A stretch of 64,000 nucleotides of DNA from Paramacrobiotus metropolitanus. Taxonomy: Eukaryota; Tardigrada; Eutardigrada; Parachela; Macrobiotidae. Under the pieces are notes generated by a model. It saw only the letters and a program-made list of their open reading frames with translations, had not been told where the DNA came from and did no database searches. Made by a program: the position numbers and the translations under genes. The stretch is from positions 558,001-622,000 of the forward strand of contig NW_026570302.1 in the NCBI RefSeq assembly GCF_019649055.1, written 5' to 3'. Every line of letters begins with the position of its first letter. Within the stretch, counting starts at the first letter, position 1. This document shows, one piece after another, positions 1,987-60,072 of the stretch.

Positions 1987-4376
1987 ATGTCTGACGATGT
2001 CGGCCGTACTATCCGCGTTGACGTTTTGGGCGACGATAACCTGTTCCGCAACGGACGAGTGGTGGACATCTCGGATAACGGGCTCTTCGTCGACTTCTTC
2101 TGCCCCAACCGACGACGCGAATTCACCCCGTTCAACCGAATTTTCCAGAGTAAAAAGACATTGAAGGATAAAGACCTGGCCACTGCCTTCGCTTACGCCA
2201 AACCCAACATGACCATTCCCGTGGATGCCCTGGTGCTCGAGACACCCTCCGGTCCGTGGATCTGGATCCCGGCTGAAATCATCAATATGGCACGGGGTAT
2301 CCGGCAGACGGCATGCGGCGTAGCCGTTGTACAGTGGATAGGGGATATTCCGCGTATGGATCTGGTTCCTCTGGAGCGATTGCGGTGGAGAGTGGCAGGC
2401 AAATGGTGGGCCACTATCGGTCGAAAGGATCCAGCGCAGCATTCAGCCTCAAACAAATGGCATAACGGCGGCTATAGGCTAAGCGAAATGGTCACGCGGC
2501 CTAAGCTAATCAAACCAGGGACCTTCGAGAAACATAGCGCAGCGTTTCCGGAAAACTGCCGCGATGTGGACGTCGACAAACTGCTCCAGCACTTAAATGG
2601 TCCAGCATGCCGTTATTTGGAGATCGGAGGCCAACCGGTTTCCTTCGCGGCCGTGATGGACGGACGTGTGTGGTACGTTCGTCGGCCGAGTAAAAAGTGG
2701 TATTATTTCCCCCGGGATCAGGTAAGGGCCGAATACTGTTTAATGCGCTGATGGTAACTTTATTTCAAGAACTTGGTATGAAGGCACTGAGAAGCAAGGA
2801 CTCATTCGAGTTTTTCTACCGAAATAACGAGCACTCAGCCTATTCATAGTTTCCGCTTATAATTCGTTGTCAGGAGCTTTTAATATCATTTTTTGCAGGC
2901 CGCCGTCAGTATGTATGAAGATCTCCTTACCAGACGTGTAGGCAAAATTACTGCAATGTTGGTCGAAGAAAGCACACCGTCTGTGGAAATTGACGATGTA
3001 CATGTCCTACCCTCGGCTGTGCTGCTGGAAGTTTTCGCTCATTTGGATACTCGAACGCAGACCGGATTACGCTCCGTTTGCTTTGCGTGGAACGGGATCC
3101 TGGAGTCACCAGTGTTGGCGGCTTGCATCGTTGTAACTGTTGACTTCTCCTGCGAAGAGAATGCCTATCAGAGGAAGCGCAGCCCGAAGGATTACTTTCT
3201 CATGTCACCGGTTTTCAAGTGCCTTCGCAAATCCACTCAACATATCGTCGTTGACACTCGCGGTTGGTCAAACACCGGCGATTTCCTCGCGCTGACTGAT
3301 GGGATACAATTTACCTGCCAGAAAACAGGGACCCGATTGCGAACGATCCATTTAGCGGGAGTGCACTTAGAACTGCGACTCGGCCAGGCTGCAAACTATC
3401 CCGAGAAGTGTAAGCTGCATCGCTACGGCGCCGACAGTACCGACTGCCTTTTGAGCTCCCCCTCTCGCCTGGTCGATTTCGTCACTGCTTGCGGTGGTCT
3501 GCTGTGCGATTCCATTCATCTGGTCAACTCTACTATAGTTCTGGAGTACGCTATGAAACAGCCGTATGTGGAGGAACCGGACAAGATGGAGCTCTCGGTT
3601 CGCCGGTTAGATTGCCGCTTGACTTTGAATGATGCTTTGAACCGAGCGCTGTGGGATGCCCTGGAGGGATGCGTTAAGGGGAGGCTGGAGGAAACCCAGT
3701 GAGGAGCAGCTGTTTACCTTGTCAGAGTGGCTGACTTCTATCCGTGCTGAGGAGAATCAGCGATTCGAGAGAGAACTGGTCTGTGGGGTAAGTAGAGCCG
3801 GTGGTTCGTACAACATACGTCGGCCTTCGAAGTGATAAGATTCCGAGGGAATCGTTCTGATCTGCGAAAAAAATTTTTGTAAGGAGGTTCGAATATTGCT
3901 GGCACATATATTGCATGTATTGCATGGGTTTTCTATAAGGCACGTTGGCTTTATGGATTTCCTAGCAGCAGTCGCAGTACTCTACTCATGTTTCTGGAAT
4001 TTCGTGGCAATCGTCTAGCATTCTTGAAGAAAACTAAAAATGCTTGACGGATGTGATAGCCTTGATAGTCCCGTCAAAACATGTAGACATATATTTTCGG
4101 TTAGGATTGACACGATTTGATCATTCGGGTTATATATTGCAGATGTTGTGTGCGACGCAGACAGCTGACCCGCGTCCATCGTCCCATTACCGTGGCAAGG
4201 AATGGTGCGTTGCCGGCCTCGACGATTTGCAACTGGAGAGACTGTCTTCGATTGCGCTGCACTTCCTGGTTGAACTGTCTGAATATTTTGCGCAAAGCGA
4301 CCACGATGCCGAATCGTACTACAGTGACGGCGGGTCAGACCACTGTTCTTCGACGGATGACGATTCTGATGAGTGA
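1987..4376 (+). pseudogene. NGLF/F-box family copy A, frameshifted late in exon 2
   Basis: Three-exon member. Exon 1 (1987-2721, 245 codons) starts at an ATG in MSDDVGRTIRVDVLGDD and holds both N-terminal modules (NGLFVDFFCPNRRREF, then GPWIWIPAEIINMARGIR) and the full middle section, ending at GATCAG before GTAAGG. Exon 2 (2899-3787) follows TTTTTGCAG in phase 0. Its F-box is LPSAVLLEVFAHLDTRTQTG with VCFAWNGIL, followed by an LRR-like stretch. The frame breaks close to 3670-3695: the reading reaches TGA at 3702, while the expected ending PSEEQLFTLSEWLTS continues in another frame to the GTAAGT donor at 3788. Exon 3 (4143-4376) begins after ATTGCAG and ends in an acidic Ser/Asp tail. Exon 1 and the F-box are well preserved, so the break is recent, or a base error. 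If translated as is, the product would stop near residue 513 and lack the exon 3 domain. Confidence 0.8.
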
Positions 4377-29031: not shown

Positions 29032-29042
29032 CTTCAAATATA

Positions 29043-29081
29043 GGGGGCAAAACTAAACGTGTTCCACGGTTCCCCTGTATT
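29043..29081 (+). repeat. Left terminal inverted repeat of the 11.6-kb transposon
   Basis: This 39-bp repeat begins GGGGGCAAAACTAAACGTG and matches the complement of 40593-40631 with two mismatches. TATA precedes it. Confidence 0.9.
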
Positions 29082-29684
29082 CCCTCGTGAAAATGAAAGT
29101 TACAAAAAAGATCTAGTTAAGAATTCGTGTACTATAGAAGTTACTACTAAACGTTGTAAAATATTTTGTGAGCAGCCGATCCTATGTCGAAGTTTAATGT
29201 AACTTCTCATCTTTGTTTACTTACACTGAATGCTACACAAAACTTCCACGACAGTTCAACATTTTCATTACCACAAATCGAGAACAGACGCGGCAAATAC
29301 TATTCGTAAGAAAATAAAAAAAACAATCAGAACGTCGCAATTATTTGCTAAAGTCTGTCCGAAATTCCTGACTTATTTAAGTAAGCCAGGAGAAAAACAA
29401 CAAAGTTATTGATGCGAAACAAGAAATAATAGGGCAAAAATGATGATTGTAGGAAATGAGCATCGTCGAAGAAGGTTTGAACAAATCCAGGCAGAGGAAA
29501 TGCGATCGGCTAATTCGAACCAGAAACACCACAGTCGCAGCGGTCACGACGGCATGCGTGTCAAAGCCAAAGGAGCATAAATCTGGAAACGAAGAACGTA
29601 ATATTCTCTAGCGAATTAAAAATTATCAAGTGAAGTTGGACAAGAAAAATCGGAAAAATAGAAAAATATGTTTTGCTTACTTTT

Positions 29685-31729
29685 CTACGTGTTGCACAAA
29701 ATGACGAGCTGAGTACTCCCATCCTTCACAGTCTCGTATGTCACCAGCTCGATCAGGTCGTCCGTCGCCGGGATGTTCAGTGGCGGAATTTCAAATCGTG
29801 TGTGCGGTGGAATCACTCGCCCCTCGTGGCCAGCGGTTGGAAGCCAGAGGACACTCCCGAGCGTTGCACTCAATTGCATGTACAACATCACCTTTATAAA
29901 AAGGTCCAGACAAAGGAGCGAAGCAGCCTCGGCATTTCAGGTAAAACTTTTTCTGCAGAGAAAGTAGTTCCATCAGCATTAGAATTATTAGCCAGAACTG
30001 GAGTCGACTCCTTAATTCTTACCGCGTGAATCCTCCTCATATGCGTGGTAATATGCAGCCAGTTGATCTTCTCACCGCAGAGGGTACACAAGACGTAATA
30101 GAACTCCCCCTTTGACCTGCATTAAAGCAGTCATTACAAACTGTATACGAGGAGGGAGTAAGCATCTTCGGTAGCGCGTTCGAATAGTCAAGACTCTTTG
30201 AACACTGTGCGTCAAGTGCGTGACAGCATGATTCATTGAACTGCCAACCGTGGAATGTTGCCCATCGGCGTGCACCTCACCGTCAACCGTGGATGGTTGC
30301 CCTGATTGACAGTGGCCAAGTTAAACGTGGATTGCCAGCCTTCCGCGGTTGACTGTTAAGCCAGATTTGCAGTCAAACGAGTGTTCAAGGTGTCTTGACT
30401 ATTCGAACGCGCTACCGGAGATGCTTGTTCCCTCCACGTACTGATGGAGAAAAATCTACACAATTATAACTAACTACCTTTTACGAGCGTGGTTTAAATA
30501 AGAACGGACTTCCGATCTAATCAGACACATCACGCGGTGGCAGGTTGCAGTTTCTGTCCAATGCTTGTGCGGCAGGGACAGGTCGAGCCGACGGGTGGCG
30601 AGGCGACAGAGTCCCACAGAGTCCAGCATACTTTTCGCCGTCTGTTAAATGCGCAAATAAAATGACTGAGAATCGTACAAATTATGACTTGACCGAACAA
30701 TTCCTCTACCTCCGGCGAGTTTGAAAGGAACGGTTTAATCCAGTCGTAAACATAACAGGACACCGACGCCTGGTCTTTAACGGATGGCGGCTTCTGTAGA
30801 CTGCGGGGGAGGAAGACAGAAGATGCAAGTGTAGGTCGACCTTTGTGTTTTGCCAAGAACTGCGCCCACTCCTGGACCGCCTTTTCCATATCCATTGAGA
30901 AGCGAATGAATTTATGGAGCTCAGTGTCCATCAGCTAACAGTCAATGTCGGAGTTTCTGTAAACCCGGCAAATGCTTGATTAATGATGATTTTGCAAAAA
31001 ACTGAAGAAATATTCAGATCTTCATGTTGGACACAAATACTGCAAGTTATTTATGCTCTGGGGAATTCTGCAGTACCCGAAAATTGGGACTTCTTTGCTC
31101 AGGTAAAACTTCCCCTTGTTTTCGTATCCATCAAAACTGTCTGGAAAAGCGCAGCGGAAAGTATTCAGCGGGAATACAATCGAACTCATTCCCGGAAGAG
31201 GAATCTCTGGTGCCATGGACACCAACGATACGACTGTGTCTAAATTCTGCACCAGATCCGACATGGCGGTGAATCTCAACGCTGCATAAAGCCTCCATCC
31301 CTCGCTGCAAACCAGAAAGAATTACAGTTTGAAAATGGGTCGACCCAACATAGACTGTTAAAATATATAAGTATTACACGTTGCAATTCGGACAACGACA
31401 GACGATGTCATGATTCTCGTCGGCATTTGCTCCCGGTTGTTTCGCAATCCATTCGTCTGCGCATTTATGACACACTATTCCACTACAGCACGGCGAAATT
31501 ACAAGGCTATGGAACGGACAATCTACGCCAATCATACACTGAACGGAATTCTTCACATCCTGCAAACAAAACAGAAAACCGTAAAAACAACTTGTAAATG
31601 TCCATGGGATAAGTCGAGAATTAATTTTGAAAAATCTTATGATTTAAATTTTACATTTAAAATCCGTTATTCAAAAATAGCTAAACGTACGTATACTGCG
31701 TCTAGTAATCTTCTTCGGTGATCTTCCAT
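29685..31729 (-). CDS. Transposon-borne RING and zinc-finger protein gene (multi-exon, tentative)
   Basis: Read on the minus strand from an ATG at 31729 (MEDHRRRLLDA), five bases after one GTCGAC palindrome. The next exon (about 31558-31382) encodes a RING-like finger: QCMIGVDC, then SPCCSGIVCHKCADEW, then CRCPNCN. Further open stretches in plausible order are 31310-31100 (WRLYAALRFTAMSDLVQNL), 30931-30670 (MDTELHKFIRFSMDMEKAVQ) and 30091-30024 (CTLCGEKINWLHITTHMRRIH, a C2H2-like finger closed by GTAAGA). A Cys-rich piece (LKCRGCFAPLSG) and an open C-terminal stretch run to 29685. A RING would suggest ubiquitin-ligase activity; some large animal transposons carry such accessory genes. The exon chain is my inference and a nested foldback element sits in one intron, so this may be one gene or two, intact or not. 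Confidence 0.45.
30146..30440. mobile_element. 295-bp foldback element nested in the large transposon
   Basis: The left arm TACGAGGAGGGAGTAAGCAT at 30146 and its inverted partner ending at 30440 match over about 60 bp, including GGTAGCGCGTTCGAATAGTC. The terminus TACGAGGAGGG is shared with the foldback element at 28337-29031, so they are related families. It lies in an intron of the RING gene. Subtracting its length brings the unusually long palindrome interval 30000-30833 down to about 540 bp, close to the other intervals, which supports a later insertion. Confidence 0.7.
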
Positions 31730-31749
31730 TTTAGGAGTCGACTCCACGT

Positions 31750-33978
31750 AGCGCTAACCTGTAACGAGAACCTCCGTTAAACTCTTGAGACGATTGCACA
31801 CCGAAGCCGTCATGAAAAAAAAATCTATAACCTTCTCGAAGTGTAATCACTTAGACCACAATGCACGGTGCGCCCTGCGAGTCTGCAGCCAACGCTATAC
31901 AGTACTTACTATAGATAATGCCGATCGAATGAATATGCCAAACGCCAAACCAGAAAACAGTTATGATTACGGAAAGTACCAAGATGCCGCTTCAATCAAG
32001 GACACACTGTGATACATTCATATGATGAGAGAGATCTCCCGGCTTCGATCCCGGCGCGGTTGTATTACCGTCCTGTGGCAGCTGCGGCTTGTGCGGCACG
32101 GACTGCTGATCGGGGAACAATAATATCCAAAGAATCTGCAATCAGGAAACAAACTGCAATAACCTTTCAGAATTCCTTAATGCTTACGATCATGTTTCAT
32201 TTAACACAATGCTCAAACTAAATAATCCCAAATCGGACGCCTACAAAGGCTATTATTTTCAGTAATGAAATTCTCTACTAAATGCGTACTCCTGACACAT
32301 GTCACATTTGAGAAGGAAATCAGAGAGAAACGGATTGTAAACGTAACTATTTACTAGTGATTCATTGTGAAGTTATGAAAAAACGGAAAAAATGAATGCA
32401 GTAATGCTAAATAGCTAACAATAAACAACTACCCATCAATAGCTAACCGGGCGTAAACTATCGCAGGAAAAAAACGCAGACTATACAAAAATGGAAAAGC
32501 GCGTATTTTCAATAAATTATTTTTTTTAAAAAACGCGTAATTTTTATAACCACCGGTAATAATTTACCATGAGCTGAGGAAATTGTATTGAAGGCTTAAT
32601 TATCTGTACACAAGTAAAAGTAGTGGCACTTAAAATAAGTGTTTCAGTGAAGCTAGCCTTCATCGTAAGCGGAGCGTTAATAGTACTTTCGGTCCATCAT
32701 TATGACGAAAAAAACGTAAGTGTTAAACACAGGAGACTTAAACTTTTTCACCGAAACCTTCCTCGAATAACGGTAACTAATTACCTGATCGACAAATTGC
32801 GAAAAGCTCCAGCTAACTGCTAGCTGTCAATACGGCCAGGAACCAAGCGTACAAGCACACAGGAACCCGGATCATTGAGATCATAGAGACGCTGATCTAC
32901 AGCAAATTCTCTATTTGGCACAGCCTGCGCTCTACTTTGGCTACAGTGACTACACACCGCCACTGTCGCTTAACGGGTATTTGCAAGTTTACGATATCTT
33001 GCAGCCGTTTTCCTTTCTCTGGCTCTCCGGACTCAGAGTAGTACTTACTTAAAATCCTAGCTTATCGCAAAACTGAATGGTTCTTCAGTCTTACATTCTG
33101 CCGATAAGGACACACGTAACAACTACCCTATTTATTAAACTTAACCGCCAGCGAGCAAAGCACTTACACTACGGTAGGCAAACAGTGACGCGCTACGCAA
33201 CCAAGAAACATCCACTTGGGCCGCTGGGCGCTGGAATCCCTCTTGTTTCGGCTGTAAAAAGGCAATCGCGAAGGCAAGCGTCACTCTACAATCAGATCAC
33301 CCGACTCTTCACCGCAAACCACCACACTACCGCACTCAGCAAATTAAGGAGAACACGAATCAAATAGACACCGCAGTTCCTCGTCCATACAAATAACAAA
33401 TGGGAATATTCGTCACAAGGGGAATGATCAACAGTAGTGATTCTTTAGATCAGCCAACGCTACACATCACTCAATTCAGGAGAATTTCGAGTTCAACCGT
33501 TTATCAGGATGTTATCCAAATTAAGAGTTATTAGTAGCATTTACTCGTCGAAAAGTAAAAGTAAAAAACCCGAATATGTTGCGCAATTTTTGGTTCGTCA
33601 AGTTTTCTGTGCACAACGTTCTCACAGTTCACTGGAAAAACCTGTAAACGGAACCCAGCGGCTTATGCGGCGCGACTCTTTGGCATACCAAAACCGTCTG
33701 ACCCGCCACCTACCTATTCTTGACTTGCATTCATTACTCAGTAACGCATAAGTACTCAAGCCTTGTGCTGCTAAAAGCTGCCGGTCTTTGTCTTGTTTGC
33801 AAAAATTGGTGACTGTATCTGCAGTATTTGGAATTTTGTCCCTACAAAGTCTTTTCGTTTTTTTGCTGGTATCTTTTCATCTTGGTGCTGCTGTTGTTGG
33901 GTCGAACCGTGCCAAGTAAGAAACGCCTGCGTTTTGCTGCGAATTTTTGTTCTACAGTAAAGTGTGGTTGTTTTTAGC
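31750..33978. other. Non-coding 2.2-kb stretch inside the transposon
   Basis: No gene is supported, and no GTCGAC palindrome occurs here, unlike the rest of the element. Small open frames (for example 33077-33367 and 33509-33751) have no domain. The stretch may be a later insertion or a cargo segment of different origin, but I found no terminal repeats for it. Confidence 0.4.
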
Positions 33979-34495
33979 ATGTTGAGCGACGATGAATCGT
34001 TATTTGAAGGATGCTTTATAATTGATCCCCGACCTTACAAGTCTCAAGAAGCAATCCTCGTAGCCCTGAAAACAGCTACCACAAGGGTTGTGAAGGAACC
34101 GAAAGAAGAGACGAAAAAGGTCGACCTACCGTCTGAATAAAATCCGCGTGCCACCGCAACAAGCGATACACCAGAAGATACATGGCAAGCGCTTTCTGTT
34201 CGCGTAAGTGAGGCCCCGTACGATGCAGTGGTGTTATGCATGTTCTGTTTATACAAATTTCCTGTAACTGCACATAGGTTTTGCCCATATATTAATAAAG
34301 TTAGCTATTTTCTATTTATTTTGTTACTTAATACAATACAATAAATTTCAGGTACCAAAACGTGAAACTTCTATCTATCAAGAGCCGACCGGACCGAAAA
34401 AGAGCAATGATGAATTCGATGATTTTGATTATGAAAGTCTAGCGTTTGAAGACGAAATTGTCTTACCGAAAAGAAAAAACAAAAGTAACGGATAA
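33979..34495 (+). CDS. Small acidic transposon protein, two exons
   Basis: Exon 1 starts with ATG at 33979 (MLSDDESLFEGCFIIDPRPY). It can run to a stop at 34138-34140, or splice at AAG/GTCGAC after 34119, where the donor lies inside one palindrome. A second open block (34352-34495) follows TTTCAG and reads VPKRETSIYQEPTGPKK, then DDFDYESLAFEDE and a basic end KRKNKSNG before TAA. Splicing at 34119/34352 keeps phase 0 and gives about 94 aa. The protein is acidic with a basic tail; no domain is recognised. It ends tail to tail with the transposase gene. It could be a DNA-binding or regulatory partner of the transposase, but nothing shows this directly. Confidence 0.45.
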
Positions 34496-34575
34496 AATTA
34501 CTTTTTAAAGTCCATCTTGTTGAAAGCGGTTCTAGGGTCGACCCGTTTTATTTACTCGAAGAGATGTGATTTTAA

Positions 34576-37173
34576 TTACATGATAAATCGCTTATTCGGT
34601 ATACAGATATAGAATTCAGGATAATTATGCTTTCCATATATACACACAACAGGTCTAAACAGAATATCGATAGCCACTACATCGTACTGCTGACAATCCA
34701 ATCGCAAGAATTTTCTTATAAAAGGCGGATTTGTACCATCTGGTAGTGTAATGGCACTAAACGGCTCAGTTCCGATATGCTCAACAGCAGCATAAATACT
34801 TCGCACAACCGATTCAAAAAATAACGAATTTTAGCAGCTTCAGTATTCTGCCCGTCACCGTTTGGAACCAGTAATTGCACCGCCGCTCTTTTCTGCGAGT
34901 ACCGTAACACTCCAGTTCAACGCCAACGCTCCTGATTACTCGGTTTCGGAAGCTGCTTGGACAACCTCCTAGCGCTTCTTGCAAATGTCCTATCTTTTTT
35001 AGAATTTGCAATTCCAAATCCGCATCATACATGGGTCAACCCGCTAATTTATGTCATCACTAGTGCCAGTCGCTGACTGGTGACAGCGCGAAGCCTCTAA
35101 ATGTTGATAATTTCGTACAATTTGTTAAGCCACGTCCGTACTGCCATGAACCGATTTCGTTAATCCACCCAAAAAGTCCGCAAAGTAAAAGGTCGACCAT
35201 TGATATGCGGGCACCCAGTTTTCTAGGGCTGTAGAGAGATGAATAAGTTGGTGAACGTTAAACAACATCCGTCGCTCTCCGTACAATTGTTGGAATCGCT
35301 GGCAATAACGAAAAATAAGGCCCTGGGCGGTAGCAGCGTGGTCATTTAGTAACCCACCATGATCCAACATGAGATAGTGCATTGCTGTCACTAAATCTAG
35401 CAGATTGTCACAAAGTACATGAGGCAACTGTCCATCCAATGCATAAAAAGCTCCATACATGAGAAAATTAAGATACTCAGAGGCGTGATACGACGAACAT
35501 TCCGATATGGGGGGAATTGTGCGGCTAAATTGTGATGGAAAGATGATACGGGAAATTCGCAGGTCGACCTCGATCTGAAGATTAGCAGACAAGATCTTCC
35601 TTTTTTTGTTGTTAATATTGGTGTAAACAGGAAGAAAACACATGGGGTCCTTCATCCAGTACTTGCACAGCTTTTTGGTGACTCCCAAAGCAACAGCGTG
35701 GAGAAAATCAGGAGGACAGTGCACATCGGGACTGAAAGAGGGGATTCGAAACAAACTGCTTGCACGAATAATTCCATGGCATTGTTTATTGTGCTGCAAA
35801 GCAACCCGTGCACTGCGGATATACTGCTGACGATCTTTGTTTGCCGAAACACGATCGAAGGGGTACACGCGAACACCATCAACTACTTTTCCGGTGTGTA
35901 GGCACGCAGTGCATCCGTATTCTCCAGCAAAAGATCCATGACACAAGATGTCATTTCTCGCAATGGTATCAGCCACCCATAATGCCGGCTTTATCGCACT
36001 AATTCCGTCCGCTTGGGTCGACCCATTTGCAGTATCTGTAAGTTCCGCTGCAAGGAGTTTTAGGATAATATCCATGTTCGGTTTCGCCTTTCCCACCGCA
36101 AGGGCAAATAAAAACCGGTCACGGTACCGCTTACGCGTAGGAAGCTCGTTGATTATGTAACTAACAACTGTAATTGATCCGTTCAAACTACCATTGAACC
36201 CAAACGTTTGTCCATCGTCCACATGAAATGTCAGCGATACATCTCTTCCGTGTATATTTAGTCTTTGATATCCCTTCCCCCAAAAAATGTCCAGATTTGT
36301 AAAGCTGTTTCTGAATTTAAATACATCGCCTCCTTTGTCCGATTTTACATAGCGTTCGACAGTGCTACCAGTCGGAAACGTGTAGAAAATGCTTCCTCGC
36401 TTTCGGTTGTCTTTGATGGTTTTATGGGTCGACCCGCACTCTGCACTCGAACAGCATATTGGATCCCGAAAACTGTTTTCTTCTCCGATATAGTTTTGAT
36501 GTTCGTAGCAGAAATGATGGATATTGGGATTCAGCAGATAAGGCGTAAGAAACGAATCGAGATAACACAGATTTTCAGGAAACTCCGACGTATCCTTGGG
36601 TAGTTTCTTGAAAAAGCTCAACATTGCCCCTTGTTGAACGCGAGGCATTTTGTGTTTCCTGCAGATCCGCACGAACTGCATGACATTTCCCAGGGTGTCG
36701 ACACCGGAATCACCTTCACCCTCTTCAAGTATATCCGAATCCGAGCTGGCATCTTTTTGAGGTGTTGAAACCACTCGCGAAACATACGCTCCGTCATCCC
36801 AAGTGCCGTCAGGAGACATACTCTTGAAATAAACATTTTACGCACTGAATTACTTTATTTGATAAATATTTCGGATGAAGCGAACAAAACATGACTCCTT
36901 TTACTTTTAGACGGAACAATTAACATCACTGATAACATGTAAGTTTTTCAAACAATAGCACTCGTAGCATAATAAATTAAAAAATTTAATGAGTCAGAAT
37001 AAAAATACCAGGGAGTCGACTCCTTCCGGCTGCGATTCGCTATCACTTGACTCAACAATTCGAGGGTTGGCCACTTTTCCGCGATTTCTCCAGTGAGATG
37101 TTTTCGGCAATAGTCCATCTTCATACAAGTACGATCGATACCGTTTTCGGCGTTTACGCTGTTTCTCCGCCAT
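34576..37173 (-). pseudogene. DDE-type transposase gene of the 11.6-kb element, broken
   Basis: Exon 1 (37173-37009, 55 codons) starts MAEKQRKRRKRYRSYLYEDG and ends in a GTCGAC palindrome before GTATTT. Exon 2 starts at 36822 after TTTCAAG in phase 0. Its N-terminal part is acidic (SSDSDILEEGEGDSG), followed by Cys residues that may bind zinc (CCSSAECGS). The catalytic-type core reads HVDDGQTFGF (about 36226-36199), INELPTRKRYRDR (about 36159-36120), GKAKPNMD (about 36090-36068) and DFLHAVALGVTKK (about 35712-35676), with the DxxH arrangement seen in several eukaryotic cut-and-paste transposases. An in-frame TAA at 35125-35127 interrupts it, although similarity continues. A one-base loss in a T run near 34829 shifts the last part (KIRYF, later DVVAIDILFRPVVCIYG) to a stop near 34576. 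The gene would need both lesions to be errors to be functional. Confidence 0.75.
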
Positions 37174-37633
37174 TGTTTAAATAATTTAAAGATGAAATTT
37201 GTAACTAAAAAATGAATAATTTAGTCAAAATATCTTCGCGTGAACTGTAGCAGCAAAAAGATAAAGACGCCGCCACTATTGTTGTTTCGCTTTATCAAGC
37301 CGCGCGCATAATAGCCGGCAGCGCTGTTTTTTTTCCGGTTGAACTGAACTGTGTTTGCTTGTGTGCGGCACCAGTTGTAGCAGATAGTCGCCGCGGGCCG
37401 ATGGTAACCAAATCTGTATGTACGTATCGAAAGAGAAGGGGTCGACCCCGGTAAACGTAGATGATATGGGTACGCCCGATTCGTGCCGTCCGCATTTTTT
37501 CTTTCAGTCCCACATATGCATGTAGTCTTTGAGTTGTGCGCGGTGAACAGGTTTACGATCTCTGTTCTTCAAATTCTTCGTTTTGTTTACTTAGTTTTCT
37601 TCGTTTCTTGGTTCTTTCCAGCAACAGCGTACT
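37174..37633. promoter_or_regulatory. Divergent promoter region of the transposon
   Basis: This 460-bp gap separates the transposase start (minus, 37173) from the start of the BEN-domain gene (plus, 37634), so it should hold both promoters. The GC-richest palindrome of the set, GGGGTCGACCCC, lies at 37438-37449, close to the middle. A regulatory role such as autoregulation by an element-encoded protein is a reasonable inference; no TATA box is clear. Confidence 0.45.
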
Positions 37634-40098
37634 ATGTCTGCTCAAAAAGATAGACCGCCTACTCAAAAGGGTAGAACGCAGCGTGTGAAGAAAGTTTCCG
37701 GATCCTTGAACGAGGACGACATAGAAATGGATGATCTACAGCGTCAACAAAAAGAAATTCATGCCCGACATGACGCTCGAAAAGGTAGCATCCAACTCGA
37801 AACTGTAAAGATTTCTGGGAGTCGACTCCTGATCAGTTTAGCCGTTTTCTAACAAACCTTATATGATTTCGCATATCTGGAATTAGAAATGGTGAAAAAC
37901 ACCAAATCAGAATGTGTTAAAATTCTAACCTTATTTTATCGGCAGTTGGACGTTAACTAGTTATTACTGACATTAACAGCCGTATCGTTTGTCATCGATT
38001 TCACACTAAAAAAAACTTCAGATTTTGAGCTGCTTAAAGGTGCCTGAATGGAATCGACTCCAGTCTGTTTTTTTATTTTTTAACCGAGTTGTATAGACAA
38101 AGGTAACGCAAGTACTTGTTGATGGATACTTGTTCTACTACTAGTAACAATAAGGAATTTTTCAGATTATTGCGTTGTTCAATTTGCTGAGGACGGTCTT
38201 GTTCACATTATTTCTATGGAGCGGCAGTCCAGCAGCGCGGCATGGCGTTTGGAAGAAATGTCCACATATGAATCACTGCTGAAAGAGAGGGATATTATTA
38301 GCGTGAAGGCACCAAAGAACCAAGACGCTCTGCAACGCTTCTTCACGGCTCGGGTTGTTAAGGTCTCTTCAAGTGAAAAAGTTGCTGTTTCCGTTGCAAA
38401 GAATTTGGAATCGCGAAAGGCAAGACAGTGTTGCAAAACGTTCATTAATGCCAATTTATTTTTATTATAATATTTCGTCACTCTTAGAGTCGCTGTGTAG
38501 TTTGTCAGCAAAGCAATGTTTTGCAGAAAGGAAAGGGCGCGCGGACGCTGGAGTCGACTCCATCCAAAAAGAAAAGTCAAGAAGACCTGCTCAACGAAAT
38601 CAGTTCAGAGTCTGAATCCCAAACTGATGCTAACAACACCCAGGATCTCAGTTGCAACTGGAGATTCGATCCCTATACCGGAAAGCCCGTTGGACAATGT
38701 AGTCCCGTCGCAGCCGGTAGCGGAAGCATGAAAGGAAAGCAACCAGGTACAGAGAAACTCGGTTGCCGTTACTTTTTGTTTTAAGTTATTTAAAATATAT
38801 ATGTAAATTTAGAGTTGCCGGCACATAAGCGGAAAAGACAGGAATTTGAGGAGTCTGATGGTAAGTGGTTCCGATTGCTTTCTAGTACAGCAGGTCGACC
38901 TTTCCATGGTAAGCTCGAGCTGGCGTAAGAACGCTTGAATATTGCCACAAGTCAGCATTACATCTACTAGCCATTAACATGTACTGTACGTTCTTGGCAG
39001 GAAGTGATGATGACAACTATACATGGTACAGGCTGTCTCCCCCTACGGGCAAACCAAAACTGCCGGCAATTGCGGCCCGAGAATTGTTTCCTCAAAAGAT
39101 TATGCGTAGGTTACCCGTCAAAGACCCAAATAATCGCATTTGCATATTCCGGTATTGACATATCATTTAGGAGCCGACAAAGGTGATGACGCCGATTGCC
39201 CTGCTTACGGCAAGGAGTCGACTCCACCGATGAAAGTTAACAGAACCGTTTGCATGTAAATATGGTGCTCTGATTACTTTCAGCATTCGCTTGTGCTATT
39301 TTTCAATGCATCTCTTCTGTTCGTAGATTTTTACGCTGAGCGACGTGGCGGCTCATCAAAAGTGGAGAAGCAAGCTAGCGGTACAAGTACTTATTAAACA
39401 ATTACCTAACCGTTACACCGGTAAAACCATATTTTTCTAGGCACAAAAAGTGCTGGGAATGCGAAACACAAAGGTGCGGCATATCCTATTTCAGATTTTT
39501 TCATACAGATGCTGCACAGATAAGCATGGTCTTTTTTCAATAATTTTTAATAAATAACTTTTATTGGATGAGGTCGACCTTTTTCCGTGAAGTTTTTTTG
39601 ATGTTTCACATAGATTCTATGATGGAAGAGCAAAGAGAATTGGCTGAGAGCTGTCGACAGCAGCTGAGACTGAAAACCAGAGAGAAGGTTGCGCTCTATT
39701 CTGGATCCGGAGTGTACTTGCCGAAGGGACAGTTCATCAGTTTCGAGGCCCGCTTAAAGCCAAAGAATGCCCTCATGGACGGTGTCAACCATGCGGCGAT
39801 GTTTTTCCGCAATACAGAAACGGCAACCCGGATCTTTCGGGGAGACCATTATGGCTTGAAGTCTGCGCTGGGGACAGATCTGATGGGCGAATTGATGCTT
39901 ATTATTTAAAATTTCAAAAACCGCTTATGACATTATCACCATGGAAAATTTTTGATCGTAGCTTACATCAATGGATACCATCCAGCTACGGCCGGGAAAC
40001 AGTTGAAGATCCAGGAAGCAGAGCTGATCCGGGCTTTCAGCCATAAGCTGTACTACCTGCGTAATCATGGGAAGGGGTCGACTCCACGCAAAGGTTAA
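37634..40098 (+). CDS. Transposon accessory protein with probable C-terminal BEN domain
   Basis: Exon 1 (37634-37784) starts MSAQKDRPPTQKGRTQRVKK. Exon 2 (38166-38419) joins in phase 1 and encodes DYCVVQFAEDGLVHIISMER, a small module of the kind that precedes BEN or similar domains in transposon-linked proteins. It ends at a GC donor (AAAG/GCAAGA). Exon 3 (38527-38746) is Ser/Lys-rich, and one palindrome in it encodes LESTP. Very short exons follow (38813-38862 with HKRKRQ, a possible nuclear signal; 39001-39025; others to about 39480). A larger exon from 39613 begins after CATAG and holds the BEN-like block VYLPKGQFISFEARLKP, then MFFRNTETATRIFRG. A last piece, about 40020-40098 (LIRAFSHKLYYLRNHGKG), ends at TAA 40096-40098. 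BEN domains bind DNA or chromatin factors. The later splice sites are uncertain, so I cannot say whether the frame is fully intact. Confidence 0.5.
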
Positions 40099-40474
40099 GC
40101 GTTTCCTACGAAATCAGTGTTAACTTTGGCGCGATGATGTTTTATTGGCAATTTTACCACTGGCGGAATACGTCGATTTAGCGTTTTGCATTTATGACAC
40201 CCACTAGCATATTTTTGATACCTTACGTGAATACCAAAAGTGCACGCGATGTTTTATTTTTATGCACTTTTTGGGTTCGTTTCCTGTATCTTTAGTCTCC
40301 GAAATGTGTTGCACTGTTACCTACAAGTGTTACTGCGAAACTTACAATAAAACTTCTAAAAACGAGTTCCAGATTAAGTTGGTAATTGTAAGTTCTACAC
40401 TAACTTTGTGGCACAAAAAGGTATAGCTGCTGTTCAAAAATTGTTACAAAAAAACTTATACATTTTCGCGGGGG

Positions 40475-40595
40475 ATTGCTACCGTCACCCGGCTGGTGTT
40501 TTACGTTGTGGCTAAACATGGCGCTTATGTACCGCGCCAGATTTAACCATATGTACTGCCGTAACGTCACACTCCAGGCGGGTGACGGCAGCAAT
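40475..40595. repeat. Subterminal inverted repeat next to the right terminus
   Basis: ATTGCTACCGTCACCCGG at 40475 is matched by an inverted, imperfect copy ending at 40595. The two arms are about 55-60 bp with a very short middle, and the structure directly adjoins the right terminal repeat. Nothing equivalent is seen at the left end. It may be a transposase-binding feature or a small nested foldback insertion. Confidence 0.6.
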
Positions 40596-40631
40596 ACAGG
40601 GGAACCGTGGAATACGCTTAGTTTTGCCCCC
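40593..40631 (-). repeat. Right terminal inverted repeat of the 11.6-kb transposon
   Basis: The reverse complement of this 39-bp segment begins GGGGGCAAAACTAAGCGTA and matches the left terminus with two mismatches. TATA follows it. Confidence 0.9.
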
Positions 40632-40635
40632 TATA

Positions 40636-43600
40636 TAGATACTTTTATTCGTATAATGTGGGTTACCAATCTAACAATATGGTTGCTCGCAAACCGCCAC
40701 GGTAACATGTATTATCAACAGCGCAAGGTTTTCGTCTGACGCTGCAGGCCGAGTAACCGGTTTCGTTTTTTTTCGAAAAGTATCCTCACTTCGATATTTA
40801 TTTCTCAACAGCCGGCCAATTCACTACGTATAAGTTTCGAATACCCGGTCACCTGGATCTTTTGTTATCTATTTCCCAACTCTATCCGTTAAGAGACCGG
40901 ATATGGCCGCTAAGCTGGTTTACCTAGTCGTTGTTTGAACGGGGATCAGCAGTTATTTATGCAAAACGTCACAGCTGTTGGACCGGGTTGTTCATAATGT
41001 TGCTGTAAAGTAAGAGTGACCGGTTGAGAAATGTGGAAGTACATATCCTAACGTTCCTCTCATTTTTTCTGCTCACTACAAAGTTCACCAACGAGGCCTT
41101 AGGCCCGTCAAGAACCACCTACTAAATGCATTTCAGCAACCATACTATCCCTGCAAGCTACGAAGTGTCTCGGGGCAACCGTTTTTATTGGAACTGCAAT
41201 ACTTTGTAATGGTATTGTTGCTTGGAAATGGAATTTCCGTAACAATAACGAAATATCGCGGTAATCGTAATTTTATTTTTTTTTACCCTTCCTGAAATAT
41301 GAATGGCCCCCTTGGGGGCCGGGGGTCTCTTCATAACCGCTTTTTTATTTTGTTAATCTGCCCAATAAATTCCACAATAGAAGTAAAATCAGACAATGAT
41401 TCAAATAGTAATCTGGGCCCGCTTTCCTCTTCTAAAAGTACAAAAACTGCTTTGTAAGGTTGAAGCAGCGCGCCTGACGGCAATGTGCATTGTGCATAAT
41501 GCACATAAAATTGTTTGAGTTGAAACAAAACTAATTATTATTTTACTGAGGAGCTTTTGTACCAATCTCGTACGTTTTGCACTAAAAAGAATTATTAGAA
41601 TGATGACAAGAGATTATGTACCAAAAATTCTCGTGAACATCCAATAAATTGCAGTTTAATTGCAGTTTTTGAGAATCTGGTCACAGGATATGGCATTGCT
41701 AAGGATAATACTTAAAAATTGCAATAATAAGTTGCTGAATATTGTACAAATTTGTGGACGCTAATAAGATGAAGATTCCATTTTGGTGTCTTCACCTTTG
41801 CACCGCATTAAATGGTAGGTCATGCTCGTACTTTTCAGTTTGGATGTACGTCTATACTCTATAGCTTTACAAGCTCGTATTCTCCAGTTTGCACCGGTTT
41901 CAAAACTTTTTTGGTTCGCTCATCTTGTACGCCAGTTCGGTACTAAGCAGTTGTAACTAATGAGTACTTGGTGGAAGCTAATGGTCAAAGTACTGGGTAC
42001 AGTAGTGAAAATGCTTAAGCTTTCATTCCAGCAAAAGCTCCGCTGTACCTTATATGTAGTTTCCATGACAATGGTGGCCACACATATTACTCACCATGGC
42101 ACATAGGGGTCCTCCAAATTCAGAAAAATCTCATCTTCTGAAAAAAGATAGTATAGTACCCAAGTATGCTTAAAAAAATATTTTCAGCTGCTGTAATTCA
42201 GATAGGCGTGGCCAGCGCAAATTAAAACAGTACGCAATACCGCATACGTACTATGTTATTTCAATCATCAATGCACAGCGCAGGCTTTATTCATACGAGT
42301 ACATAGCAGTCATTGCAAGACCATTCGCATGGACTCGGGCAGCTGCACAGCACCGAGGCAAGTGAAACCCGCGTGCGGTCGTCCCTGTCATCGCTTTCAA
42401 ATTGCCGACTTTCAAAAATGTGCTATTATCTATCATGTGTTATAATTACACTACGGGTAAAAAATGCGAAAAATTTTCTTGTAATAATTTAACACACCAA
42501 TCCAGAAATAAACAAATTTTGAAGTTTGACAGCGGTGGAAGGGACCACCGCAAAAAAATTCAATTAAGAAAGAGAATTTTTTGTTAGCTTGTGCTGACCA
42601 TAGGTCAGCGGTGGTGACTATGTTGCCTGCTGACAACAATGCCGATGGACAGTCTACTGCATACAAACGTATAATTTTGTAATAATTATAAAAACAGGAA
42701 ATACGTAAAATCAATAACTTATTTAACTACCCCAAAAAAGTGCTTCAAAACAGTAGCACATAAATGGTCAACAAATTGACCACTGGTCAGCAAAAAATTA
42801 AAACCTGTTGAAACCCTTTTCTTTGCATTTTGACCACTAAGAGTACTAGATATATAAAACATAGAAAACAAGCGATGCTGACAATATTCCTTCGCAAACT
42901 TTCATCCCTCTCTTATGTGACATTTTACGAAGCAGCCTTTGTGGAATTTAACATTGCACTTGCTGCCTTGATGAACACGCCGAGCCGCCTTTACACTGCG
43001 TGCATCATTCGGACTTGCACGTTTCCTGTGTGGCCGCAGACTCGCAGTGGTGGGTATAGGGAAAGCGGCGGAAATGATCCAGCTGTAAAAGCGATTGACG
43101 CCGAACCAAATATTAGTAGTCACGTGCACTTTTTCTAACACATTATCGGCCGGATCAGGATTTAACCTACATAAGGCTGTCGCAAAGGTCTTCATCACCA
43201 ATTTGATCGTTCCAGTTTGCAATCGCCCGAGACTGGCCAAAACTCAAAATTCGCATGTTTCTTTAAAGCTGCGCGGCTCCATCGCTTTGCTTGCCCAAGC
43301 GGCATTCGGTATCGAAGGCAGAGAGCAGCAGAGTGCAGGGTTGTGCTGCCATTTCACCGTGCTACGTACAGTGTCGTACACTGGCGGTAGAATTACAATC
43401 AGAACTAAAGCATCAAGACTGCCATGCCGACCGCCCGGGGTGCCGTTCTGGTATCCCATTTTCTGCTAGCTTTCAAAACCAAAACCTCATGGCGCATGTT
43501 TTGCGTCCGAACCGACAGCAACTTACTCCGTTTACGCAATGAAAAGTATCTGTCGAAAGTGCACCCGCCCGTGTATTCATAACCCTTCATGGGCAATGGT

Positions 43601-57332: not shown

Positions 57333-57817
57333 ACCAACCCCTGGGATTTCTGGACGGTGAGTGATTTTCGATTGTTTGGATTGTTGGTGTTTTGGTGGCC
57401 GAGTTGGTAGTACCACGTGGATCCTCAGAGAGTCCCGTGAGGATACGGTTCCTAAGTGGAACTGTACAGTCGGCCTTGGTTGACCCAAGTCTCCTTAGAA
57501 GGAACTTGGAGGACACGGTTCCTAAGTGAGAGCCAGGTGTCTGGTACGGTCCCAAAGTGAGAACCAGGTACCGGGAGTCTGCGGGAAGTAGATCTCCGAG
57601 TTTGGTTTGGCGTGGGTACGCTTGGTTTGGCGCAGTACAGTAGTGATCTGTACTCGCGGGTTTAGTTATTATAGACGGTACAGGGAGTCGTAGTGATCAG
57701 CCCCGTTATAGTCTGTAGTTAACTTCCGGGTAGACGCTGGCAGTGTCAGCGTTATCTGGATTTGACATCTTGATCTGTTGTCTGTGTGTCCAGGCATTAA
57801 CTTCGCAGGCGCTGACT

Positions 57818-60072
57818 ATGGATCGGTCAGTGACAGGTGAATCGCAGTTGGCTGTGGATGGCTTATCTGCACGGGCTGCTGCAGGATGCAGCAGACGGAC
57901 TGGTTTAGGGTTCAGTAGTGCTGATCCTGGCCAGGTTAAAGGCACTGTACCTGGTGGTACGGTGAATGGCGGAAGAGAAGTCGTAGATGAAACATCTATG
58001 ATCAAGGAAAATTTTGATTTTACTGGTTTACGGGAACTGGAAAAACGGATCATGGAGATTGACCCTGTTTCCGTTCCAGTTGATCAAATTGGTTTTGAAG
58101 ATGATATCGAATTATTTGGTAATAATTTCGTAAATATTGGCAGTGAAATGGCCGATGCTGTGACAGACTTGCAGCATGGAGATGAGTTGTTTTCGAATTT
58201 ACCAGATATTCGCCAGCAGAGAAGTGGTGAAGGGCATGGCGAGAGCAATGAACTGCTGGAAGTGTATCAGCAGCTTGTCCTTGATTATGAGAAGTTACAG
58301 GCTGATTACAGGATTTCACAGTCAGATTTGAATACTGTGAAAGCGGATCTGCATTCAGAGAGGGAACATGCTAAAAGGTTAGCACGAAAGATTGAGAGTT
58401 TTGAAACAGAACGTGATGACATCATGCGCCAGAAAGTTGATTTGGCGCATGAATGGAACAGGCAGAAGAAAGAAACAGCTGAAATGCAGAAGCGATTGAG
58501 TGAATGTTCTGCATTGCTGAAACTAAAGGTGAATAATTTTCTTTTGGAAAAGAAATTATTTGACGAAAACTTCGCAAAGTTTAATGCAGAAAGAAATCTG
58601 CATAAGCGACCAGATGTAGAAAAAGGAATTAGAGCGCAGTCAGAGAAGAGTTCTGTGATTGAGGTTGTACATGAACGAGATGTACAGGGTACAGTAGGTG
58701 CTGGTAGGCCTGTGCGTCCTCGAACTCTGTCCGCACAGAAATTGAATGGGCAGACTGTAATTGACTTTTTGGATTTGCGTACTCGGTACCATAATCTTCA
58801 AGAAGGGTTTGGAATGAATCGTAGTTTGTCTCCTACGATTTCGAATGTTAGTTCAAACGATTTCTATAATATGCAGTTGAAGTTAGCTGCATTAGAAAAA
58901 CGTATTGATGCGCAGGAAAAAGCGACGGCTGAAAGGAAAGCTGATGAGTCACTCAGCTTGAACAGTCTGGCACGTGTTTTGAAAGGTGCATTCAGGGATG
59001 ACGTAATGTATCCTGAAAAGTTTAATGGCAAGAAAGGTTCGATGACAGTAGAGAACTTTATCGAAAGTGTTGATAATTGTATCACGCACAATGGATGGTA
59101 TGATAGAGATGTGATCGACAAGTGTCTATCACGGTGTCTCACAGGTACAGCTTTGTGCTGGTACAGCGATAAGTACGAGGATAATAAGCATAAGACTTGG
59201 AACCACTGGAAAGAAATGTTGGAGAAACATTTCTCAGATGAGAAAGATGTGATGGCGTTAAGGGAAAAAATTGGTAACAGGATGTTTACCAGTAAGGATA
59301 CCCCGAACACATACGTAGACTGGTTTACAACTATCTTTAGAAAGTAAAGTTGGACGAATCAGAGCGCGTGTACTATCTGAAGCAAGGGCTGAAGAAGTGC
59401 AGATACGGCTGGTACACGTACATGGAAGAGAATGAAATTCAGGATACTGAAGAGTTCCTGAATGGGTTAAAACTGCAGTACAGGTTGGCGAAAGAAGATT
59501 CAGATGTAGAAGATCTGGATCAGCCAAGCGATAATACTGGTGAGTCCGGTAGAGAAGGCACTGGTGACGATGATGACCAGTCTTCAGCAGTGAGTGAGGA
59601 TAAGTCGAGTTCGGATAATGGAAAAATTGTGATTAATTTTTCCAAGTGGTTTCTTCCAAATGGAAAACCGATTTGTTTTAAGTGCCATGGTTTGCACAAA
59701 AGTGTAGAATGCGCAAGTAAAGGGCCGCGTAAGCCTATGTTGGCTGAACCGCCGCCTGAGGTAGTGAAGCAGCACATGTTAAAGTTGAGAGTGAACCCCG
59801 AATGTAACAGCATGGCGGTAGCCCATGTTGGTCGGAAGTTTAAGCCTGGAAGGGATAAATCTGCTGGAAATAAGCAAACGACTTCTAAGGTTTATTTACC
59901 GAAGCGAACGGAAGTGTATTTGCGGAGCTGTAATGCATCCAAGGATGTGAAAGCTTGCATCAGTGGCAGTGTCAGTCAGCAGCAGTTTGACACAGTGCAT
60001 CACAGAGTGGCACCTATTTTGCAGTGGGGGTGCCAAAGCTGGAAAGTTTCCTCTGGCCGTAAATTATCATGA
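57818..60072 (+). pseudogene. Gag polyprotein gene of the LTR element, with one frame break
   Basis: The first ATG is at 57818 (MDRSVTGESQLAVDG). The first frame runs to TAA at 59345-59347 and the second is open from 59350 to 60072. The first part has a long coiled coil (about residues 150-270, LLEVYQQLVLDYEKLQADYR and onwards). It then has a capsid-type domain (YPEKFNGKKGSMTVENFIE, LTGTALCWYSDKY, WNHWKEMLEKHF) of the retrotransposon-gag kind. The break lies inside this domain, since YLKQGLKKCRYGWY continues it in the other frame. That makes a programmed shift unlikely and a one-base change near 59340 likely. The second part ends with a zinc knuckle CFKCHGLHKSVEC and a basic region (KRTEVYLRS). 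Gag would assemble the particle and bind the RNA. Confidence 0.78.

Follow-up and report, generated by a model that had tools for sequence, protein, structure and literature searches.

The locus raises the question of why one transposon should carry the hexamer GTCGAC over and over, in most cases with flanks that extend its symmetry. We analysed a 64,000-nt window, the whole stretch examined here, from Paramacrobiotus metropolitanus (GCF_019649055.1, NW_026570302.1, 558,001-622,000, forward strand). The window held 37 GTCGAC sites, and 20 of these lay between 30003 and 40082, within the element that we call F1 (Table 1). Symmetric flanks of at least 1, 2 and 3 bp were found at 19, 18 and 11 of the 20 sites respectively, and flanks of at least 2 bp at 3 of the 17 sites outside F1. 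Among the 27 palindromes of at least 10 bp in F1, 18 had a GTCGAC core. Across 500 dinucleotide-shuffled versions of 29038-40636, GTCGAC turned up 2.1 times on average (at most 7); sites symmetric over at least 2 flanking bp averaged 0.12 (at most 2), and those symmetric over at least 3 averaged 0.04 (at most 1). The palindromes noticed in a first-pass annotation were thus real, with 18 of 20 sites having at least 2 symmetric bp against a shuffle mean of 0.12, and the enrichment held, although the count of about 22 was corrected to 20. Two checks proposed there as possible refutations were run: shuffled sequence did not yield such palindromes, and the sites were kept in other F1 copies.

Table 1. 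Features of F1 and its insertion site, in window positions.
Feature	Position	Strand	Remarks
MITE hosting the F1 insertion, left part	29038..29081		at least 70 genome matches of this end
Left target-site duplication ATT	29079..29081		read by eye
F1 transposon, 11.4 kb	29082..40474		ends CCCTCGTGAAAATG... / CCCCCGCGAAAATG...; aligned with copies C105, C46 and short derivatives
Palindrome GGAGTCGACTCC	30000..30011		kept in 3/3 aligned copies
Palindrome AGGTCGACCT	30833..30842		sequence and aligned copies
Palindrome TGGGTCGACCCA	31336..31347		sequence and aligned copies
Palindrome GGAGTCGACTCC	31734..31745		copy C46 differs at one arm base
Decayed site, GTCGAA in window	33901..33906		C46 and C105 have GGGTCGACCC
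Palindrome AGGTCGACCT	34118..34127		inside short + strand reading frame (by eye)
Palindrome GGGTCGACCC	34535..34544		sequence and aligned copies
Decayed site, GTCAAC in window	35035..35040		C46 and C105 have GGGTCGACCC
Transposase-like ORF, 570 aa	35125..36837	-	757-769 aa in C46, C214, C105
Weak site GGTCGACC	35191..35198		symmetry ends after 1 bp in 3/3 aligned copies
Palindrome AGGTCGACCT	35561..35570		within transposase-like ORF
Palindrome TGGGTCGACCCA	36014..36025		within transposase-like ORF
Palindrome GGGTCGACCC	36426..36435		within transposase-like ORF
Palindrome GGTGTCGACACC	36694..36705		within transposase-like ORF
Palindrome GGAGTCGACTCC	37012..37023		sequence and aligned copies
Palindrome GGGGTCGACCCC	37438..37449		sequence and aligned copies
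Palindrome GGAGTCGACTCC	37818..37829		sequence and aligned copies
Decayed site GGAATCGACTCC	38050..38061		C46 and C105 have GGAGTCGACTCC
Palindrome TGGAGTCGACTCCA	38549..38562		in-frame reading E-S-T-P (by eye)
Palindrome AGGTCGACCT	38892..38901		C46 core altered
Palindrome GGAGTCGACTCC	39214..39225		sequence and aligned copies
Palindrome AGGTCGACCT	39571..39580		sequence and aligned copies
F1 gene exon, possible BEN-like domain (unconfirmed)	39619..39906	+	
Palindrome GCTGTCGACAGC	39650..39661		C46 core altered; C105 one arm base altered
GGGGTCGACTCC, asymmetric in window	40074..40085		C46 and C105 have GGAGTCGACTCC
Right target-site duplication ATT	40475..40477		read by eye
MITE hosting the F1 insertion, right part	40478..40636		

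The ends of F1 had to be redrawn. The outer terminal repeats assigned to it earlier (29038-29081 and 40593-40636) belong to a MITE of about 200 bp into which F1 was inserted; many of the listed matches to the MITE end occur as inverted pairs about 160 bp apart. The 44-bp inverted repeat was dropped as a transposon end, as copies align only from CCCTCGTG inwards. By eye, 3-bp target-site duplications were seen at four elements (ATT at the window F1, ATA at C105, ATA at C46, TTT at L013), and F1 shares a duplication of this length with CACTA/EnSpm elements. Its ends begin with CCC and have no terminal CACTA motif. The transposase-like ORF looks CACTA-like by eye only: its product had no significant relative in Pfam, PDB or databases, no Pfam family (Tnp2 was sought) scored above cut-off for the F1 proteins of 570-769 aa, and the AF2 model (pLDDT 29) was unusable. 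An element-encoded BEN protein, one of the binders suggested at first together with a transposase or zinc-finger protein, was likewise not confirmed by profile, PDB or structure tests. The candidate domain in the F1 gene at 39.6-40.1 kb had no Pfam match and no protein homologues were found; the only BEN-related match was NAC1, a BEN protein (E=1.5), and the exon model (pLDDT 43) showed two strands followed by helices, as in BEN, but was too poor to count. By eye, most F1 sites lie within gene bodies.

The palindromes had also been described as confined to one transposon, which held inside the 64-kb window but not genome-wide, where other, unrelated element groups carry them. GTCGAC palindromes were present in three other F1 copies and short derivatives, in piggyBac elements and in a hAT-like element, and the families bearing them include non-coding derivatives (F1na, F3, F3c). 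The piggyBac transposase domain DDE_Tnp_1_7 was found in F2, F3a and F4 (219.7 bits in L010, 239.8 bits in L033; F2 above cut-off), and TTAA flanked both ends of F2 (3 copies) and F3 (4 copies). F5 gave a sub-threshold match to the hAT dimerisation domain (E 0.00032, 20.9 bits against a cut-off of 21.4). Eight representative elements (28.1 kb) contained 69 GTCGAC sites, 56 with at least 2 symmetric bp. The background of 173.8 kb, drawn from the window apart from F1 and from the peripheral parts of 16 element-flanking loci rather than from random loci, contained 36, 8 with at least 2 symmetric bp and 28 below that. Genome-wide, GGAGTCGACTCC occurred at 74 places, and 50 of the 50 listed fell in these transposon families. 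TGGGTCGACCCA occurred 28 times, compared with 3 for the mixed-half GGAGTCGACCCA; two mixed forms were rare throughout the genome (3 and 7). Symmetric sites were absent from other sampled loci of this genome, namely 4 of 4 piggyBac and 2 of 2 hAT loci. GAGGTCGACCTC, with 139 genomic copies, was set aside as evidence, being confounded by a coding repeat: the five loci examined around it were one repeat that reads K-K-R-G-R-P-R-K-K, AT-hook-like by eye, and held no other symmetric GTCGAC.

Arms co-varied across sites. Over the 69 sites, they matched at positions +4, +5 and +6 in 60, 58 and 50 cases, against 29.5, 33.2 and 24.2 expected, and 5000 shuffles of pooled halves gave a mean of 15.5 and a maximum of 29 sites with at least 2 symmetric bp, never reaching the observed 56. 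The 54 sites of the F1-F4 representatives fell mainly into three arm classes (TC 19, CC 19, CT 11, others 5), with right arms biased to pyrimidines; all 19 TC sites were symmetric at +6 as well. F5 was more varied. Its six homologous sites had six different arm sequences over the copies (TGCTG, TTTGG, TGTAG, TAGG, TGAAG and TGCGG), five of them in L036 (TGTAG twice) and TGCTG in L038, and in L036 as well as L038/L027 the arms matched at every one of these sites with an intact core. One homologous F5 site was altered on both sides (GCGG..CCGC versus GCTG..CAGC), and 2 of 3 comparable sites in L043 had a one-sided mismatch. Between copies, in pairs conditioned on a symmetric site in at least one member, divergence rose from 1.7-5.5% within 1-6 bp of the dyad to 6-18% (about 12%) at 7-33 bp; the contrast was significant in 6 of 6 families, three of them non-coding. 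Sites fell in several reading frames. Within families, 331 pair cells were unchanged, 30 changed on one side and 2 on both, the latter from one event. The earlier view that copies do not decay asymmetrically was therefore too strong, since most changes between close copies are one-sided.

Homologous piggyBac codons revealed how sites arose. Both arms differed in CGG GGT CGA CCC versus CGA GGT CGA CCT, and again in GGT GTC GAC ACC versus GGA GTC GAC TCC, so that three two-sided differences are known at homologous sites, one within families and two between piggyBac families. Where F2 reads CTA GGA GTC GAC TCC, a palindrome-free piggyBac element has TTG GGT GTC AAC TCT, and F3a/F4 have TTG AGG TCG ACC TC at the homologous codons. 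L010 had no palindrome at the G-V-D site. Because homologous codons exist in site-less and site-bearing versions, the sites arose by substitution, and the gain was accompanied by protein changes; an origin by insertion was ruled out, as these codons align without gaps. Together, the association of the arms, the low divergence within 6 bp and the two-sided piggyBac differences support selection for dyad symmetry, which the first-pass annotation had suggested alongside copying.

Spacing was tested with all sites of at least 2 symmetric bp in nine copies. Sites were more evenly spaced than chance in most families (P 0.014 and 0.021 for F2, 0.0008 for F4, 0.021 for F3a, 0.007 and 0.063 for F5), and in the window F1 only after a split at the 2.4-kb gap. 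F1 copies contain a 2.4-3.4 kb stretch devoid of symmetric sites; without splitting, the three copies gave P values of 0.47, 0.64 and 0.87, and behind the largest gap 0.012 (window), 0/5000 (C105) and 0.02 (C46, 3 gaps only). Points placed uniformly could readily leave a gap as long as the site-free 2164 bp in F1 (P 0.16), which gives no support to promoter avoidance there.

Our best explanation, tentative and somewhat short of an even chance, is that selection maintains the sites as a cis-acting DNA feature of several unrelated cut-and-paste transposons, where a putative common dimeric trans-factor reads them. Each site has the unchanging core GTCGAC, flanked on either side by 2-6 symmetric bp, and the sites recur every few hundred bp across genes, introns and non-coding derivatives. 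The factor, made by the host or by F1, would bind duplex sites along the element body; F1 is the candidate source as the single large element with what look like additional genes. Once bound, it might keep the element transcribable or mobile, an anti-silencing role suggested by analogy with VANC. The TCC, CCR and CTC arm classes would reflect different binding modes or paralogues, each proposed to be homodimeric so that the halves match. Since the derivatives F1na, F3 and F3c are non-coding and can be expected to do without any product of their own, RNA or protein, a role at the DNA level appears favoured. Several points weigh against this explanation. A duplex-binding dimer that reads its halves singly would not force them to match, so that classes or modes must be assumed, and F5, with six arm sequences at six sites, is poorly explained by few classes. 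Most VANC motifs are found in non-coding tandem arrays, but exons too carry the sites described here. The failed BEN assignment, the site-less G-V-D position of L010, the single two-sided change within families and the 2.4-3.4 kb of F1 copies without symmetric sites also count against it.

The main rival, in our judgement unlikely, makes the arms base-paired stems of RNA or single-stranded DNA hairpins, with GTCGAC as a constant self-complementary loop, either recognised by a protein or pairing with the loops of hairpins in other transcripts. It would account for arms that co-vary, most freely in F5, and for the F5 site altered on both sides; the energies of ten site sequences as RNA hairpins, -3.1 to -9.5 kcal/mol, and the position of most F1 sites in gene bodies (by eye) are consistent with it, and oskar granules, in which a kissing loop plays an architectural part, offer a precedent (PMC11567897). 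However, most F1-F4 sites give stems of just 3-4 pairs, their few arm classes and pyrimidine-biased right arms are not predicted by pairing alone, and sites are retained in non-coding derivatives. By eye, the one-sided changes do not clearly yield G-U pairs, one-sided mismatches affect 2 of the 3 comparable L043 sites, and among the 32 pair cells that changed within families just 2, from one event, are two-sided. A broader proposal, possible but doubtful, covers both duplex dyad and paired stem: unrelated DNA transposons would have convergently gained a dispersed cis code of constant GTCGAC and matching arms of no fixed sequence, with symmetry itself read by one trans-factor that licenses the element body.

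Binding of a transposase or transpososome for movement, as at the subterminal repeats of CACTA and hAT elements, fits the occurrence of sites both in mobile DNA elements and in non-autonomous forms derived from them, but is quite unlikely: unrelated transposases would have to use one motif, sites spread over the whole body rather than clustering at the ends, and symmetric sites are absent from 4 of 4 other piggyBac and 2 of 2 other hAT loci sampled. The fixed core common to different families could instead mark targets of a host silencing or cleavage system. Loss of sites would then be expected, whereas they are conserved and were gained by substitution with protein changes, which makes such targeting very unlikely. 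We give slight credence to a mutation bias in which cutting and fold-back repair at GTCGAC copy arm onto arm, creating symmetry without selection. It predicts one-step two-sided differences, of which three were seen at homologous sites, but leaves the gain of GTCGAC and the spacing unexplained. Nor does it explain why other GTCGAC remain asymmetric (fewer than 2 symmetric bp at 28 of 36 background sites), and copies still show one-sided changes. An ordinary cause, be it base composition, coding constraint or repeat copying, can produce one class, as the five loci examined around the 139-copy GAGGTCGACCTC illustrate. As a general account this is scarcely credible, being contradicted by the shuffles, by conservation in non-coding derivatives and by sites in several reading frames and unrelated surroundings.

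Among the titles and abstract openings listed in a literature search, which covered few subscription journals, there was no report of such sites. If the best explanation is true, unrelated selfish elements evolve toward a shared cis signal strong enough to alter transposase sequences. This would reveal a factor, encoded by host or transposon, through which some foreign DNA is tolerated and some is not. Matched versus mixed half-sites would then provide a sequence handle for fishing out the putative factor. The mechanism of reading is also of interest in its own right, as dispersed DNA sites whose arms co-vary are not an outcome of standard binding-site models.

Several known systems bear comparison. 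The subterminal repeats of CACTA and hAT elements are short internal motifs near the ends, bound by the element's own proteins. They resemble the tardigrade sites as short internal motifs repeated in a transposon, whereas here the whole body carries sites common to unrelated superfamilies. HIP1 of cyanobacteria is also a dense short palindrome, but is genome-wide in bacteria (PMC4390886); the dense sites known here are in some transposons, with arms varying in matched pairs. BEN-domain target sites, such as ACATGT for NAC1 (PMC7764960) and the CGCG palindromes bound by BANP (PMC11472053), are likewise short palindromes bound by a chromatin protein; here a GTCGAC core has matched variable arms and no BEN protein was confirmed. 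In Arabidopsis, silencing of VANDAL elements is relieved by VANC proteins, which bind motifs repeated in these elements, and the VANC6 motif is also present in the unrelated AT9TSD1 (PMC5735166). In both systems a particular group of transposons is rich in a short motif that an unrelated one carries too; density matters for VANC (PMC5735166), and the tardigrade enrichment in specific transposons extends to all 50 GGAGTCGACTCC places listed of 74. VANC motifs are mainly non-coding, in single orientation and spread by tandem repeats, and the word stem 'palindrom' is absent from that text (PMC5735166). In contrast, the tardigrade sites occur in ORFs and different surroundings rather than mainly in non-coding tandem arrays; they are palindromic with matching arms, also exonic, and born by substitution.

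Within the window, 20 of the 37 GTCGAC sites lay at 30003-40082, inside the transposon F1, and 18 of these 20 had at least 2 symmetric flanking bases. The excess of palindromes implied by the first-pass annotation held up against shuffled sequence, since 500 dinucleotide shuffles of F1 gave maxima of 7 sites and 2 symmetric ones. GTCGAC formed the core of 18 of the 27 F1 palindromes of at least 10 bp. The 169.8-Mb genome contained 33,053 GTCGAC, on average one every 5.1 kb, and eight representative elements contained 69 in 28.1 kb. Three sites in the window (5512, 7083, and 13581) with 2-3 symmetric bases were located inside the F-box gene cluster, and their flanks differed from the element classes. 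The gag-like ORFs contained no GTCGAC.

Features of the window and element families carrying symmetric GTCGAC sites
Feature	Nature	Location
F1	11.4-kb transposon	window 29082-40474
MITE, left part	~200-bp MITE family, split by F1	window 29038-29081
MITE, right part	same	window 40478-40636
F-box gene	gene containing F-box; several similar ORFs elsewhere in window	window 2884-3702 and neighbours
gag-like ORFs	retrotransposon; Ty3_capsid E 3e-6, under that profile's cut-off	window 57734-60072
F1na	~2-kb F1 derivatives, non-coding	L013, L014, L015, L016, L019, L020, L029
F2	piggyBac	L009, L011, L012
F3	non-coding derivatives	L018, L022, L023, L024
F3c	non-coding derivatives	L017, L021, L030
F3a	piggyBac	L033
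F4	piggyBac	L010
F5	hAT-like	L027, L036, L038, L043

The outer repeats originally assigned to F1 itself belong to the MITE, whose left part had at least 70 genome matches among those listed, many as inverted pairs ~160 bp apart. F1 proper starts with CCCTCGTGAAAATG and has ATT duplications on both sides; CACTA elements likewise make 3-bp duplications. On its minus strand F1 has a transposase-like ORF, 570 aa long in the window copy and 757-769 aa in three other copies, and it has additional ORFs. F1 may also encode a BEN protein, the candidate gene lying near 39.6-40.1 kb. Because searches of Pfam, PDB and databases returned no significant relative of the transposase-like ORF, CACTA membership is a lead rather than a result. 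Site positions were common to the window copy and the copies on contigs C105 (80-92% alike in aligned pieces) and C46 (93-96%), and also, compared by listing, to the partly fetched copy on C214 (88-89%).

The palindromes were not confined to one transposon, as had been proposed, but also occurred in F1na, F2, F3, F3c, F4, F3a, and F5. GGAGTCGACTCC occurred 74 times in the genome; at 47 of the 50 places listed, the site together with its flanks aligned with a further F1, F1na, F2, F3 or F3c copy, and the remaining 3 were all in the F4 element. The 28 occurrences of TGGGTCGACCCA included 26 in the F1-F3c/F4 families, F3a or F5, if L028 is counted as related to F4; the two exceptions were L025 and L026. 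Six of the 7 places with TAGGTCGACCTA were in F5 copies. Matching across families was poor except for ends shared by F1 with F1na, and by F3 with F3c and L033. The piggyBac transposases of L033 (239.8 bits) and L010 (219.7 bits), as well as the F2 places, exceeded the cut-off of 22.4, and F5 reached 20.9 bits against a hAT cut-off of 21.4. Of the control loci sampled, the four piggyBac ones (L039-L042, each 3 kb, 4 of 38 listed matches) had no symmetric GTCGAC, and the two hAT ones (L049 and L050, each 2 kb, 2 of 53 listed matches) had no GTCGAC of any kind. GAGGTCGACCTC occurred 139 times; its five fetched loci (L044-L048) were one coding repeat, read by eye as the AT-hook-like peptide K-K-R-G-R-P-R-K-K, and this repeat is outside the palindrome phenomenon.

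We found that partner bases at +4/+5/+6 from the dyad matched in 60/58/50 of the 69 sites of the eight representatives, where composition predicts 29.5/33.2/24.2; past +6, all families together gave no excess in these 69 sites. GGAGTCGACTCC, TGGGTCGACCCA, and TGTAGGTCGACCTACA have matched halves; the mixed-half 12-mers GGAGTCGACCCA and GGAGTCGACCTC were rare genome-wide (3 and 7). Among the F1-F4 representatives (67 sites, F5 excluded), the 54 sites with at least 2 matching bases fell into arm classes TC (19), CC (19), CT (11), AC (3), and others (2), and 36 of 39 fully matched triplets had exactly one A/T, where column shuffling gives 19.5. Across its six sites, the F5 copy L036 had five distinct arms, each with 4-6 matched bases and TGTAG occurring twice, and a sixth arm, TGCTG, was present in L038.

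Differences between copies were 1.7-5.5% at positions 1-6 from the dyad and 6-18% at 7-33, the rise coming between 6 and 7. When the inner 5 positions were set against positions 9-33, the difference was significant in F1, F2, F5, and non-coding F1na, F3, and F3c (p 2e-16 to 0.007). At corresponding codons of the piggyBac elements, G-R-P was encoded within CGG GGT CGA CCC (L033), CGA GGT CGA CCT (L010), and AAG GGT CGA CCC (L009), and G-V-D-S/T by GGT GTC GAC ACC (L033) and GGA GTC GAC TCC (L009), with no palindrome there in L010. Upstream of the D-N-F-F motif, L009 had CTA GGA GTC GAC TCC, L033 and L010 had TTG AGG TCG ACC TC, and the site-free L042 had TTG GGT GTC AAC TCT. Judged from these homologous codons, the piggyBac sites were created by substitution, in one case with alteration of a protein stretch.

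Under a fixed site-selection rule, spacing was more even than random points in two F2 copies, in F4, in F3a, and in the first of two F5 copies (P 0.0008-0.021), but not significantly so in the second F5 copy (P 0.063), nor in F1 unless it was split at its largest gap. Mean gaps were 490-620 bp in unsplit F1 and 270-530 bp in the other families. By eye, the three short introns of L036 (~2280-2335, 1500-1615, and 960-1020) had one palindrome each, placed near the donor, in the middle, or near the acceptor, one each.

Conservation of the sites in non-coding derivatives argues for a function at the DNA level. A simple picture is opposed by the predominance of one-sided changes among close copies (30 pair cells versus 2 two-sided, both due to one event in F5). 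The one-sided changes mostly resemble decay in single copies, such as at 40077 in the window F1. The sites are less likely to be those of the transposases themselves: unrelated transposases share them and the sampled other members of these superfamilies lack them, which argues for a common trans-acting factor. Matched halves require either discrete homodimer modes, which fit F1-F4 better, or a paired structure, which fits F5 better. The closest precedent is VANC: the VANC6 motif is also found in the unrelated AT9TSD1 (PMC5735166), and like the GTCGAC palindromes it is common to unrelated elements.
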